From Anaerolineales bacterium (lineage in GTDB: Bacteria; Chloroflexota; Anaerolineae; Anaerolineales; Anaerolineaceae): 64,000 bases of DNA. Below the pieces are notes generated by a model, which was not told the DNA's origin, searched no databases, and saw nothing but the letters and a program-made list of their open reading frames with translations. This document shows positions 18,927-23,142 of this stretch, piece by piece. The stretch is from contig JAGVAB010000166.1 of the NCBI GenBank assembly GCA_020060485.1, positions 4,099 through 68,098 of the forward strand. The letters are read 5' to 3'. Position 1 is the stretch's first letter. Every line of letters begins with the position of its first letter. The position numbers were made by a program, and so were the translations under genes.

Positions 18927-18955
18927 TTGCAGTTTTTCCCCACCCTCTCTATACT
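18927..18955 (+). promoter_or_regulatory. Sigma-70-like promoter ahead of the UGA-containing small ORF
   Basis: TTGCAG (18927-18932) and TATACT (18950-18955) are spaced by 17 bases, a near-consensus housekeeping promoter. Transcription would begin around 18962, about 36 bases before the small ORF's ATG at 18998. It probably serves the small ORF and, if the hairpin at 19148 is passed, the selenium genes behind it. Confidence 0.55.
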
Positions 18956-18997
18956 ATTCAACAGATGATACACTGATCAACCGCAGGAAAAGAAACC

Positions 18998-19120
18998 ATG
19001 TCCAAATTATTCCTCATCCAGAATCGCTACTGAGCTGTTCAAACAAAGCACTGGTCAGTGCTTGCAGGCTTCAGCTTCAGCCCCGGCTTCCTGGAAGAGG
19101 ATGGGGACAAGCTGACATAA
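18998..19120 (+). CDS. Candidate 40-residue selenoprotein or selenocysteine leader peptide
   Basis: An ATG at 18998, preceded by AGGAAAAG, opens 11 codons, then an in-frame TGA (19031-19033), then 28 further sense codons to TAA (19118-19120). If UGA is read as selenocysteine, the peptide is MSKLFLIQNRY-U-AVQTKHW... ending LEEDGDKLT. A 7-bp hairpin with a GGUC loop starts 12 bases after the UGA, as in bacterial SECIS elements. The ORF has its own promoter and lies directly upstream of the selenium genes yedE-yedF-selD. It has no cysteine, so a redox enzyme is unlikely and a regulatory leader is attractive. I know no homologue. An ordinary 11-codon ORF ended by a normal UGA remains possible. 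Confidence 0.45.
19046..19063 (+). promoter_or_regulatory. Putative bacterial SECIS hairpin after UGA 19031
   Basis: AAGCACT (19046-19052) pairs with AGTGCTT (19057-19063) around the loop GGTC (19053-19056). Nineteen bases separate the UGA from the loop. In E. coli fdhF the SelB-binding loop also contains GGUC and is about 18 bases after the UGA. The bulged U of the E. coli element is not present here; SelB proteins of other lineages differ in what they need. Confidence 0.5.
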
Positions 19121-19147
19121 TGCCGCATGTTTGCTATGCGCATTAAG

Positions 19148-19169
19148 GCCGCCTGCCAGCACGGGCGGC
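19148..19169 (+). terminator. Terminator- or attenuator-like hairpin before yedE
   Basis: GCCGCC (19148-19153) pairs with GGCGGC (19164-19169), followed by TTTGTCATTT. It sits 27 bases after the small ORF's TAA and 40 bases before yedE's ATG. It could end the small transcript or act as an attenuator whose formation depends on ribosome position at the UGA codon. The stem is short and the T-tract imperfect. Confidence 0.5.
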
Positions 19170-19209
19170 TTTGTCATTTAACCCCATTTTCTATCAGGAG
19201 GTAATTTGC

Positions 19210-20328
19210 ATGTCTGAATTCAAACCACGTTTCTCTGCTTCACGCGCCGGGATCATCACCGCCGGCGCCGCCATTGGTATTCTGGCGCCCTTGCTGCAAA
19301 AGCTGGGCAACCCGCCCAACATGGGCATCTGTGTGGCCTGCTTTGAACGCGACATCGCCGGGGCGCTGGGCCTGCACCGCGCCGCCGTGGTGCAGTACAT
19401 CCGCCCCGAGATCATTGGCTTCGTGCTGGGTGCCCTGATCGCCGCCCTCATCTTCGGCGAGTTCAAAGCCCGCAGCGGCTCGTCGCCTGTGCTGCGCTTC
19501 ATCCTGGGCAACTTTGCCATGATTGGGGCGCTGGTGTTCCTGGGCTGCCCGTGGCGCGCCTTGCTGCGCCTGGCTGGCGGTGACCTGAACGCCATCACCG
19601 GTCTGCTCGGTCTGGCCGCTGGCATCGCCATCGGTGTTCTGTTCCTCAAGAATGGCTATTCTCTGGGACGTTCCCACCGCAGCCGGGCTGCCGCAGGCTG
19701 GGCCATGCCGGCGCTGATGGCCGGGCTGCTCCTGCTGCTGATCCTTGCGCCCCAATTTAGCGAGGGCGGGCCGATCTTTTTCAGCGCTTCCGGCCCGGGC
19801 TCCATGCATGCTCCCCTGCTCATCTCGCTGGTCGCCGGATTGTTGATCGGTGTGCTGGCCCAGCGCACCCGTTTCTGCACCATGGGCTCGCTGCGGGATG
19901 TGATCCTGATGGGTGACACCCACCTGATCAGCGGCATCGGTGCCCTGGTGGTGACTGCGTTCGCCACCAATTTGATCCTGGGGCAGGTCAGGTTCGGCTT
20001 CGCCCCCCAGCCGGTAGCCCATTCCAGCCACCTGTGGAACTTCATGGGCATGGTGCTGGCCGGTCTGGCCTTTGCCCTGGCTGGCGGCTGCCCGGGACGC
20101 CAGTTGATCCTCTCCGGTGAAGGCGATGGAGACGCAGCCATCTTCGTGCTGGGCATGATCAGCGGGGCAGCCTTTGCCCACAATTTCAATCTGGCTGGCA
20201 AGCCGGACGCCCTTGTGGATGGCGTTCTGACTGTGGGCGGCATCTCTCCCTTTGGCGTGACGGCTGTCATCCTGGGGCTGATCGTCTGCCTCGCAATCGG
20301 CTTCAGCATGCGCGAGAAGCTGGCGTAA
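19210..20328 (+). CDS. yedE: YedE-family putative selenium transporter
   Basis: The 372-residue protein has about ten membrane helices and the conserved cysteine motifs of the YedE/YeeE (sulf_transp) family: MGICVACFERD near residue 40, FLGCPWR near 112, RFCTMGSLRD near 225 and GGCPGRQL near 295. YeeE relatives import thiosulfate; YedE proteins next to selD, as here, are assigned to selenium compounds. ATG 19210 follows CAGGAGG. It is the first full-length gene of the cluster with yedF, a desulfurase-like gene, DUF3343 and selD. The substrate is inferred from the neighbours. Confidence 0.88.
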   Translation: MSEFKPRFSASRAGIITAGAAIGILAPLLQKLGNPPNMGICVACFERDIAGALGLHRAAVVQYIRPEIIGFVLGALIAALIFGEFKARSGSSPVLRFILGNFAMIGALVFLGCPWRALLRLAGGDLNAITGLLGLAAGIAIGVLFLKNGYSLGRSHRSRAAAGWAMPALMAGLLLLLILAPQFSEGGPIFFSASGPGSMHAPLLISLVAGLLIGVLAQRTRFCTMGSLRDVILMGDTHLISGIGALVVTAFATNLILGQVRFGFAPQPVAHSSHLWNFMGMVLAGLAFALAGGCPGRQLILSGEGDGDAAIFVLGMISGAAFAHNFNLAGKPDALVDGVLTVGGISPFGVTAVILGLIVCLAIGFSMREKLA

Positions 20329-20382: not shown

Positions 20383-20598
20383 ATGACCAAATTGGTGGAT
20401 GCCCGCGGTTTCTCCTGCCCGCAGCCGGTGATCATGGCCCACAAAGCCATTCAGGAAGGCCAATTTCCCTTCGACCTGCTGGTGGAAACGGTCACCTCGC
20501 GTGACAATGTCTGCCGCATGGCAGAGAAGACTGGCTGCACGGTCAGCGTGGCTGCTGTGGCAGATGACGAATTCAAACTGACCATCACAAGACCTTGA
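20383..20598 (+). CDS. yedF: YedF/TusA-like sulfurtransferase (selenium or sulfur carrier)
   Basis: The 71-residue protein has the TusA fold signature VDARGFSCPQPVIMAHKAI near the N-terminus, with the sulfur- or selenium-carrying Cys in CPxP. It lacks the extra C-terminal DsrE-like domain found in longer YedF proteins. ATG 20383 follows GAGGAAAGTGAG. Placed between yedE and a cysteine-desulfurase-like gene, it probably relays persulfide or selenopersulfide from import or desulfuration to SelD. Confidence 0.85.
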   Translation: MTKLVDARGFSCPQPVIMAHKAIQEGQFPFDLLVETVTSRDNVCRMAEKTGCTVSVAAVADDEFKLTITRP

Positions 20599-20661: not shown

Positions 20662-21816
20662 ATGATCTATTTTGATAATGCCGCCACCTCCTGGCCCAAA
20701 CCTGCCGCCGTCCCGCAGGCCATGACTGCATTCCTGGAACAGGTGGGCGCCAACCCCGGCCGTTCCGGGCACCGCCTTTCGGTGACGGCAGCCCGCACCA
20801 TCTACGATACCCGCCAGGCGCTGGCCGACCTGTTCAACGCCCCCGACCCGATGCGGGTAGTCTTTGGCCACAACATCACCGAAGCCCTTAACCTGGCCCT
20901 GCGCGGCTTGCTGCATCCCGGCGACCATGTCATCACCAGCAGCATGGAACACAATTCCGTCATGCGCCCGCTGCGCTGGCTGGAACAGCAAGGCGTGGCG
21001 CTCAGTGTGCTGCCCTGTTCGCCGCAGGGCTTCCTCGACCCGGATGACATTGAAGCCGCCATCCGCCCGCACACGAAACTGATCGTCCTCAACCATGCCT
21101 CCAATGTGGCAGGTGGACTGCTGCCGGTGGCCGAGGCGGGGCGCATCGCCCGCCAGCATGGCCTGCTGCTGCTGGTGGACACTGCCCAAACGGCCGGCGC
21201 TTATCCCATTGACATGCAGCAGGACAATATCGACCTGCTGGCCTTCACCGGTCACAAGTCACTCTACGGCCCAACCGGAACGGGCGGCCTGATCTTCGGC
21301 GAGCGGGTGGCGGCTGAGGGCATCCTGCCCCTGCATCTGGGCGGCACCGGCAGCCGCTCCGAAGCCGAATTCCAGCCAGATTTCCTGCCAGACCGCTTTG
21401 AAAGCGGCACACCCAATGCCGTCGGGCTGGCCGGTCTGCTGGCCGCACTGCACTGGCTGCAAGACAAAAGCGTGGATGCCATTCGCCAACACGAAACCAC
21501 TCTTGCCCGGCAATTGATCAGCGGGCTGCAGCAAATCCCTGGGGTGATCCTGTTTGGCGGGCAGGACGCCAGCCGCCAAACAGCCACTGTCTCCTTCAAC
21601 ATCGCCAGTCTGGAGCCCTCCACAGTCGGCCAGCGCCTTGATGCAGAATATGGTATTCTTTGCCGGGTGGGACTGCACTGCGCCCCGGCGGCCCACCGCA
21701 CCCTGGGAACATTTCCCGATGGAACCGTGCGCTTTGGCATGGGCGCTTTCAACACCATTGAAGAAGTGCACCAGGCCTTGCAAGCCGTTGAACATCTTGC
21801 CGGAGAGGTCAAATGA
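20662..21816 (+). CDS. Class V aminotransferase: cysteine desulfurase/selenocysteine lyase-like
   Basis: The 384-residue PLP enzyme begins YFDNAATSWPKP, carries the PLP-lysine motif TGHKSLYGPTGTGGL near residue 200 and the C-terminal RVGLHCAPAAHRTLG with the likely persulfide-forming Cys. Proteins of this subfamily are found with SelD and DUF3343. It should remove S or Se from (seleno)cysteine and hand it to YedF or DUF3343. ATG 20662 starts the conserved N-terminus, behind an RBS-like GTAAAGAAAG. It overlaps the next gene by 4 bases. Confidence 0.88.
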   Translation: MIYFDNAATSWPKPAAVPQAMTAFLEQVGANPGRSGHRLSVTAARTIYDTRQALADLFNAPDPMRVVFGHNITEALNLALRGLLHPGDHVITSSMEHNSVMRPLRWLEQQGVALSVLPCSPQGFLDPDDIEAAIRPHTKLIVLNHASNVAGGLLPVAEAGRIARQHGLLLLVDTAQTAGAYPIDMQQDNIDLLAFTGHKSLYGPTGTGGLIFGERVAAEGILPLHLGGTGSRSEAEFQPDFLPDRFESGTPNAVGLAGLLAALHWLQDKSVDAIRQHETTLARQLISGLQQIPGVILFGGQDASRQTATVSFNIASLEPSTVGQRLDAEYGILCRVGLHCAPAAHRTLGTFPDGTVRFGMGAFNTIEEVHQALQAVEHLAGEVK

Positions 21817-22037
21817 AACAATATACAGTCATCCTGGTACATTCCAGCAGCCATGCCATGCGCATTGAACATATGTTGAACCAGAAAGGCGTTACCTGCA
21901 AGCTGATCCCGGTGCCGCGCCACCTCAGCTCGGATTGCGGCCTATGCGTGCAGATCGAAAAGCAGCATGTGCCCATCGCTGAGGAAGTGGTCAAGGCATC
22001 CAGGCTGGACATCCAGGGCTTTTTCGATCTCTGGTAA
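21813..22037 (+). CDS. DUF3343 protein, putative Se/S carrier
   Basis: The 74-residue protein matches the small DUF3343 family: an N-terminal beta strand (YTVILVHSSSHAMRIEHML), a Cys in VTCKLIP and the conserved SSDCGLCVQIE motif with two more cysteines. Family members often sit beside SelD and are called putative Se/S carriers. Its ATG overlaps the previous stop codon (ATGA), showing translational coupling to the desulfurase-like enzyme. The biochemical role is unproven. Confidence 0.82.
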   Translation: MKQYTVILVHSSSHAMRIEHMLNQKGVTCKLIPVPRHLSSDCGLCVQIEKQHVPIAEEVVKASRLDIQGFFDLW

Positions 22038-22068: not shown

Positions 22069-23142
22069 ATGTCCACGCAACCAGCAGAACTCCCACCCGA
22101 CAAGGAACTGCGCCTGACCGCCCTGGCCTCCTGCTCCGGCTGAGCGTCGAAATTCAGCGCCGAAGCGCTGGCGCAGGTGCTGCGCCCTGTCAAGGACATC
22201 TTTAATATCGAAGACTATCCCAACCTGCTGGCCGGGCTGCGCGAACCGGACGATGCCGCCGTGTGGAAGCTCGACGAAGACCGCGCCCTGGTGGTCACCA
22301 CTGACTTCTTCACCCCGGTGGTGGATGATCCCTATCTCTACGGCGCCATTGCCGCGGCCAACAGCCTGTCGGACATCTATGCCATGGGCGGTCACCCCTT
22401 CCTGGCGCTCAACATTGCCGCTCTGCCGCCCAATCTGCCGCCAGAAGTAAATGGCGAGATTCTGCGCGGCGGAGCCAAGACCGCCCGCCAGGCAGGCGTG
22501 GTCATCGCTGGCGGCCACACCGTGCAAGACAAGGAACCCAAATACGGCCTGGTGGTGCTGGGTTTCTGCCACCCGCAGCACATGCTGACCAAAGGCGGCG
22601 CGCAGCCAGGCGACATGCTGGTATTAAGCAAACCGCTGGGTTTTGGCGTGTTGACCACCGCCATCAAAACCGGCAAGGCCGCCGAGGCCGAGATCACGGA
22701 AGTAACCAACTGGATGCTGCGCCTGAACAAAGCCGCCAGTGAGCTGGCTCTGGCGCATGGCGTGCGGGCTGCCACCGACATCACCGGCTTCAGCTTCCTG
22801 GGTCACAGCTGGGAAATGGCAGCCGCTTCTCAAACCGGGCTGTGCTTTCATTTGGCACAAATCCCGCTGGTCAGCGGCGCACAGCGGCTGGCCCAGGAAT
22901 GGGTCTTCCCCGGCGGAGCCTTCAACAATGAACAATATTACGGCAAGCATGTGCGGTTTGATGAGTCAATTGGCGAAGAAACCCGCATGCTGCTCTTTGA
23001 CCCGCAAACCAGCGGCGGTCTGTTGATGGCCGTCCCGCCCCAAAACCTGGATGCCATGCTGCACCAGGCAAACCAAATGCAGCAGCCGTTGTGGGTGGTC
23101 GGCGAAGTCTGTGAGGGTGAAGGCATCACCGTCCTGCCATAA
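22069..23142 (+). CDS. selD: Selenide, water dikinase SelD, selenocysteine-containing
   Basis: SelD makes selenophosphate from selenide and ATP, the selenium donor for Sec-tRNA. The true ORF begins at ATG 22069 behind GGAAG and runs through an in-frame TGA (22141-22143, codon 25) to TAA, giving 357 residues. The TGA falls at the catalytic position, reading ALASCSG-U-ASKFSAEALAQVL, matching the family's C/U-G-x-K segment. The AIRS-type ATP-binding part (VVTTDFFTPVVDDPYLYG, AANSLSDIYAMGG) and C-terminal DPQTSGGLLMAV follow. Standard ORF calling would start at 22177 and lose the active site. A functional SelB and Sec-tRNA must exist elsewhere in the genome. Confidence 0.95.
22155..22186 (+). promoter_or_regulatory. 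Putative SECIS region within selD
   Basis: Two adjacent hairpins follow UGA 22141. CAGCGC/GCGCTG (22155-22160, 22165-22170) has loop CGAA, 17 bases after the UGA. GGCGCA/TGCGCC (22170-22175, 22181-22186) has loop GGTGC, 32 bases after it. They share base 22170, so they compete at that position. Both distances fall in the range used for bacterial SECIS prediction; which is recognised by SelB cannot be told. Confidence 0.5.

Follow-up and report, generated by a model that had tools for sequence, protein, structure and literature searches.

A candidate transcription attenuator with a recoded UGA in the leader of yedE in an Anaerolineales bacterium and its relatives

Background

The trp, his and leu operons are controlled by leader-peptide transcription attenuators, in which a short leader ORF containing the sensed codon is followed by alternative antiterminator and terminator structures, and in which a stop codon parks the ribosome near the antiterminator strand. 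The leader described here lies directly before the yedE gene, in a stretch of 64,000 nucleotides from an Anaerolineales bacterium (hereafter the window), and appears to share this organization; it differs in that the sensed codon would be a stop codon recoded to selenocysteine (Sec) by means of a SECIS hairpin, and in that a single UGA takes the place of a run of sense codons. The use of UGA decoding or termination as a sensor is also shared with the autoregulation of RF2 (prfB) and with tnaC, although these sense the RF2 level or free tryptophan and not Sec-tRNA. Among selenium genes, the leader of the Escherichia coli selAB operon reportedly carries a SECIS-like element that controls translation through SelB binding, a finding said to go back to work of Thanbichler and Boeck in 2002. 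A SECIS-type hairpin that regulates selenium genes is common to both cases; the selAB element is not known to have a UGA leader ORF, terminator or antiterminator, unlike the leader in the window. The hairpin also resembles the bacterial SECIS of the fdhF type, where the UGA is followed about 18 nt on by a stem with a GGUC-type loop, whereas in the present family the frame past the UGA is mostly 18-34 codons long, encodes an unconserved peptide and ends before the terminator.

We know of no other attenuator in which a recoded stop serves as the regulatory codon. In a full-text search of the open literature no description of selenium genes controlled by a leader or attenuator with a UGA was found, and none is given in the available portions of PMC13188914, PMC5322559, PMC8124441, PMC11097638, PMC3834832, PMC2432076, PMC11124144 and PMC6239172. 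A 2015 survey of selenium genes proposes a LysR regulator instead (PMC5322559).

The leader and its neighbourhood in the window

All features of the window given below lie on the forward strand. The leader ORF (MSKLFLIQNRY, 11 codons, 18998..19030) begins at an ATG at 18998-19000, with AGGA located 9 nt 5' of it, and runs into an in-frame UGA at codon 12 (19031..19033), which is the proposed sensed selenocysteine codon. The frame past the UGA (19034..19120) comprises 28 sense codons and closes at a TAA, the second stop, at 19118-19120. Within it lies a SECIS-like hairpin (19046..19063), predicted by folding and supported by covariation in relatives, with a perfect 7-bp stem and a GGUC loop at 19053-19056 that starts 19 nt past the UGA; the corresponding distance is 18 nt in most leaders of the 37-leader set defined below. 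These elements had been pointed out in an earlier sequence-only reading, which took the ORF for a candidate small selenoprotein, and direct inspection confirms the ATG, the AGGA before it, the UGA at codon 12, the 28 further open codons and the GGUC loop on its stem. The promoter proposed in the same reading, TTGCAG-17-TATACT, could not be confirmed: the -10-like TATACT is present (18950..18955) in what can be regarded as a weak candidate promoter, whereas TTGCAG (18927..18932), the candidate -35, has 3/6 matches to the TTGACA consensus, and a consensus scan detected no promoter. The SECIS hairpin region alone is unremarkable in its folding, since 66 of 200 shuffles fold equally well; when the terminator is included, none of 200 shuffles folds as well as the resulting 236-nt leader (z -3.58).

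Downstream of the leader, yedE (19210..20328), the proposed regulated gene, encodes a putative selenium transporter matched by TIGR04112 with 494 bits. It is followed by genes for a TusA/YedF-like protein (20383..20598; PF01206, with TIGR03527 under its cut-off), a cysteine desulfurase or selenocysteine-lyase-like enzyme (20662..21816; TIGR01977 over its cut-off, SclA under its own) and a Se/S carrier protein-like product (21813..22037; DUF3343, Se_S_carrier, PF11823), and by selD (22069..23142), which is matched by TIGR00476 on the part past an in-frame UGA that can be read directly at 22141-22143. The claim that the neighbours are selenium genes is thereby borne out by family profile matches, and the UGA noted earlier in selD is indeed there.

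The sequence-only reading had overlooked three features, namely a terminator-like hairpin, its pairing with the stretch past the SECIS, and a long outer stem. The hairpin, GGCCGCC..GGGCGGC (19147-19169), sits between the leader ORF and yedE and is followed by a weak T-rich tail, CTTTGTCATTT, the whole spanning 19147..19179; its 5' arm and loop constitute segment 3. The putative antiterminator strand (segment 2, 19057..19069) would pair with 19151-19162 in a duplex of -24.4 kcal/mol, which is matched by 15% of cross-species pairings, and it overlaps the 3' arm of the SECIS. With this overlap and the weak T-tract, the window is a divergent member of the family. The outer stem, P1, is predicted by the MFE fold and by duplex calculation between a 5' strand within the leader codons (segment 1, 19011..19021) and a 3' strand at 19091..19108. 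As a general part of the element P1 was rejected, two registers having been tested with no covariation support across the whole set, and it is retained solely for the window and for certain GC-rich relatives. The predicted fold of the window also contains a second small hairpin, at 19115-19143, between the second stop and the terminator.

Relatives of the leader

The loci used for comparison are the best 80 of 295 obtained with a YedE protein query; two of them (L052, L072) hold almost no DNA 5' of yedE. Among the loci listed, a common layout is seen before yedE, consisting of a Shine-Dalgarno motif, a short ORF ending in UGA, a hairpin whose loop is of the GG(U/C)N type, a spacer and a terminator. 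The 37-leader set is what passed out of 45 candidates, namely the window together with 44 loci selected by eye from the 80; the eight with no match were L003, L016, L021, L028, L029, L030, L032 and L034. Pairing tests were carried out on 32 leaders, L005, L007, L037, L011 and L024 having been dropped for want of a clean terminator, and alignment A1 holds 30 of the 32, L002 (near-identical to L001) and L035 (its terminator misread) being omitted. A covariance model of 30 leaders, R1, matched 36 of the 80 yedE loci and the window at E <= 4e-6, always directly before yedE; the training rows of R1 include the window and 29 of these 36 loci. A further model, R2, was derived from alignment A3, which comprises 42 hand-chosen loci, excludes the window and leaves out L002, L003, L007, L024, L035, L086, L087, L099, L105, L107, L109 and L117. 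The best place for R2 in the 64-kb window is this leader, with 21.6 bits (E 5.5e-4), the next place reaching 7.3 bits. Judged by these model matches, the element is conserved before yedE. Searches with Rfam 15 at curated thresholds gave no match in the window or in nine loci, and at E <= 5 the leader gave only three chance-level matches.

When the start codon with the best Shine-Dalgarno-like motif is chosen, the leader measures 7-10 codons in 44 of 53 leaders, and a loose motif of this kind accompanies a start codon in 42 of the 53, L049 not being counted; L028, L099 and L117 were assigned no leader start because another UGA lies just upstream. At the UGA position, 19 of the 20 model matches that are not identical to leaders of the 37-leader set have TGA and one has TCA, and none has a Cys codon, counts obtained with a model trained on TGA only. 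The TCA belongs to L107 (1501-1669, reverse strand), an otherwise well-matched leader that could be a decayed copy or contain a sequencing error.

Several further variations were observed. The codon two positions before the main UGA is a second UGA in L028 (5768-5941) and L099 (1501-1674, reverse strand), Cys in L019 and L109 and Arg in many others; L117 contains two consecutive UGAs. A different leader was recognized by eye in L021, L029 and L030, two of which are Desulfobulbaceae, and also in L034, where M-x-x-R precedes a UGA and a GGU-loop hairpin. The first three of these loci have UGA-x-UGA, and no T-tract terminator is visible by eye; in this Desulfobulbaceae-type variant a stretch near yedE seems complementary to the ribosome-binding site, so that control may be translational.

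Distribution and downstream genes

Genome-wide searches with R1 were performed with strict filters, at which weak matches are lost. In the class of the L018 genome (Anaerolineae), 28 of 249 genomes were matched; a YedE of the TIGR04112 family is encoded in 44 of the 249, and 24 of these 44 have no R1 match. The gene that follows the leader is yedE in 20 of the 28 class loci, and class leaders without yedE precede selD (L093) or a member of the cysteine desulfurase family (L097, L107). The L109 leader precedes the C-terminal part of YedF, slightly under the family cut-off, and that of L110 a putative selenate ABC transporter substrate-binding protein (TIGR04553). The leader of L105 lies at a contig end, and L112 is a partial match in repetitive DNA, probably due to chance. 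In L089 (1714-3174) the leader is followed by a xylose-isomerase-like TIM-barrel protein (a weak CbiR match) and next by an ABC substrate-binding protein of the 2-aminoethylphosphonate type, both being candidates for selenium genes not recognized so far.

Of the 22 genomes from which the fetched loci come, 17 had a match, with 20 matches in total; three were extra copies, two of them before YedF-C proteins under the family cut-off (L085, L087) and one with no clear gene behind it (L086). In the phylum of the L011 genome (G010; Deltaproteobacteria), 4 of 247 genomes had an R1 match, and the leader stands before yedE in L113, in L115 (with a score equal to that of L011) and in L116 (identical to L024). 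The leader of L114 precedes a cysteine desulfurase gene and that of L117 a gene for a C_GCAxxG_C_C protein. In the phylum of G001, 6 of 301 genomes were matched at E <= 0.01, three of which are sound (G001, G030, G057), the other three, with E between 0.004 and 0.007, being judged chance on their E-values. Because the leader precedes varied selenium genes, its constant partner is selenium metabolism and not YedE alone. A test of association with the Sec machinery was tried and set aside as having no power, with SelB over its cut-off in 202 and tRNA-Sec over its own in 212 of the 249 class genomes; at the E-value used, the SelB profile was positive in 11 of 14 control genomes and over its cut-off in two.

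Covariation and competing folds

For the SECIS and the terminator taken together, double changes are present in 15 of 17 pairs. The terminator stem by itself is 94.0% paired in the 30 leaders, with double changes in 10 of 10 pairs, a count from which leaders without a clean terminator had been dropped beforehand. The stretch that follows the SECIS pairs with the loop and 5' arm of the terminator, and the core of this antiterminator has double changes in 7 of 7 pairs, 89.0% of its cells being paired against 74.0% in shuffled and at most 57.5% in slid alignments. Since the 3' partners of the core lie in the terminator loop, the terminator stem cannot account for this covariation. The part of the antiterminator located in the terminator 5' arm, on which the mutual exclusion of the two folds depends, is less well kept, with helices in which 75.0% and 63.2% of the cells are paired and with alignment slips. 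In each of the 32 leaders the best duplex nevertheless takes in five or more bases of this arm, and the antiterminator and terminator folds therefore compete. When a leader's own strands were compared with strands exchanged between species, the mean duplex z was -1.1, against -0.6 for P1 and +0.2 for a control pairing, and in the median leader 13% of the cross-species pairings equal the own duplex.

The effect of a bound ribosome was modelled by masking, a calculation that concerns folding only. Moving the mask from the UGA to the second stop shifts the balance towards the terminator, as predicted, in 25 of 32 leaders and does not do so in the other 7. Averaged over the leaders, the terminator is preferred by 0.2 kcal/mol when the UGA is masked, by 4.7 when the second stop is masked and by 2.0 in free RNA, and the values for the window are -1.9, +9.2 and 3.6, respectively. 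Across 31 leaders (L035 dropped), the mean difference between the UGA and second-stop states is 4.69 kcal/mol, compared with 0.26 when segment 2, the stretch between SECIS and terminator, is shuffled in a way that keeps base composition and not dinucleotides (P 1.4e-5). In 30 of the 31, a ribosome at the UGA leaves the terminator weaker than it is in shuffled leaders, and in 6 of the 31 the real difference does not exceed the shuffled one. Some AT-rich relatives (L006, L027, L049 and L050) have a free RNA that comes close to the UGA state, so that, by the mask model, release at the UGA would also antiterminate; in the window and in the GC-rich L001, L043 and L048 the terminator is the default fold without a ribosome, and according to the same model a ribosome waiting at the UGA would therefore be needed. 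L040 and L044 are intermediate between the two, and L010 and L039 fit neither.

The frame past the UGA and the rival explanations

The first in-frame stop past the UGA falls 57-105 nt on in 52 of the 53 leaders and is never closer; the exception, L105, has its stop at 153 nt. The other two frames stop within the same 57-105 nt in 9 and 17 of the 53, and closer in 22 and 16. When the set is reduced to 30 representatives below 70% identity, the first stop falls in this range in 30/30, against 6/30 and 8/30 for the other frames (Fisher P 1.7e-13). The count of 53 leaves out L107 (TCA), L112 (partial), L005, L007, L037 and duplicates; added leaders came from a model scan of 29 sources, in which 28 of 34 matches were examined and partial ones and those with a wrong-strand terminator were excluded. 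Other class loci were left aside as having bit scores equal to those of loci already included and being taken as the same genomes, a sameness confirmed by sequence for L088, L091, L094, L096 and L116 only. The second stop is TGA in 24, TAG in 15 and TAA in 14 of the 53 leaders. Because the frame past the UGA stays open and its distance to the stop is kept, unlike in the other frames, read-through of the UGA and a stop at a set place seem to be under selection. Loss of the ORF behind the UGA in homologous loci, which the sequence-only reading had held to speak against a coding function, is not seen, as every one of the 53 leaders has a frame that runs on for 57 nt or more.

That the product is a genuine small selenoprotein, a Sec peptide with its own function that perhaps acts with YedE, is very improbable in our assessment. 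The conserved UGA, SECIS and open frame would fit such a protein, as would the Cys and the second UGA found two codons before the UGA, and in the 24 nt before the UGA the substitutions at codon positions 1, 2 and 3 number 10/10/16, a mild third-position excess based on too few changes to decide; some constraint on the peptide may act there. A coding-type pattern is absent past the UGA, however, where 11 hand-picked pairs, which overlap (L039 is in four), show 53/56/50 substitutions; 41/42/40 remain once the L010/L089 pair, whose members differ in length, is removed, and 7 non-overlapping pairs give 32/32/32. With the three codon positions equally substituted in both samples, no protein-level conservation was found after the Sec. 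Within pairs such as L113/L114 and L011/L024 the tails disagree at numerous residues; the GAGWRP that the peptides share is encoded by the SECIS itself; the downstream genes differ among loci; and behind the UGA come a terminator and an antiterminator core that covaries. What is conserved is an RNA architecture made of UGA, SECIS, second stop, antiterminator and terminator, placed before different selenium genes. Because this architecture is kept, the product is unconserved and the downstream selenium genes differ, the comparison strongly favours a regulatory leader peptide over a new family of selenoproteins. The earlier selenoprotein proposal thus stands in so far as the UGA/SECIS frame looks translated and is tied to selenium, and falls on the product, which is not conserved as a protein.

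It is likewise highly unlikely that SelB with Sec-tRNA bound to the SECIS controls the downstream gene directly, with no need for translation past the UGA, in the manner reported for the E. coli selAB leader. SelB is a natural selenium sensor, and the SECIS hairpin is conserved with strong covariation; yet direct control of this kind leaves unexplained the start codon with its Shine-Dalgarno-like motif, the narrow leader length, the in-frame UGA and the frame kept up to a second stop. A riboswitch for a selenium compound, or an ordinary terminator accompanied by a chance ORF, would account for a structured 5' region with a terminator, and we give it hardly any credence: the alignment has no well-conserved core beyond the UGA, the SECIS and the switch strands, the frame statistics given above are at odds with a chance ORF, and no Rfam family matches the window or the nine loci at the curated thresholds.

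Proposed mechanism

Very probably, the leader is a trp-type transcription attenuator that senses a UGA read as selenocysteine and would act as a feedback switch on selenium uptake. The comparison of loci shows a conserved UGA and SECIS, a kept frame with its second stop, a covarying antiterminator core, a terminator and a selenium context; from it we infer that the leader is translated, that Sec is inserted, where the ribosome would stand, in which direction control would run and that termination takes place in vivo. A ribosome would initiate at 18998 and arrive at the UGA. In selenium-replete cells, with Sec-tRNA and SelB plentiful, the SECIS would enable decoding of the UGA, and the decoding ribosome would pass the SECIS and the antiterminator strand and halt at the ordinary second stop. 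With the ribosome there, no antiterminator would form, the terminator would fold, and yedE and the genes behind it would be turned down. When Sec is scarce, the ribosome would pause or be released at the UGA; with the ribosome held or lost at that point, the stretch past the SECIS could pair with the 5' arm and loop of the terminator, transcription would continue, and the importer and the selenium-handling genes would be produced. The peptide itself would be disposable. In Methanococcus maripaludis, yedE mRNA is reported to rise on selenium starvation (PMC11097638); this organism is an archaeon, and the rise is therefore consistent with the proposed attenuator in direction only.

Significance

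Taken together, these observations make it likely that the leader represents a family of attenuators whose members occur chiefly in Anaerolineae-type genomes, with others in Deltaproteobacteria and further groups. They would sense whether a recoded stop is decoded as Sec and would thereby control a selenium regulon that includes yedE, selD, a putative selenate ABC transporter and genes of the selenocysteine-lyase-like and yedF-like kinds; in the Desulfobulbaceae variant, sequestration of the ribosome-binding site may take the place of a terminator. UGA-SECIS frames returned by scans need not be selenoproteins, which calls for caution, and the leader offers a sequence signature for finding selenium genes that have gone unrecognized. 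If the proposal is true, it would explain how bacteria adjust their selenium uptake, and the cell would gauge its 21st amino acid by attempting to decode it.
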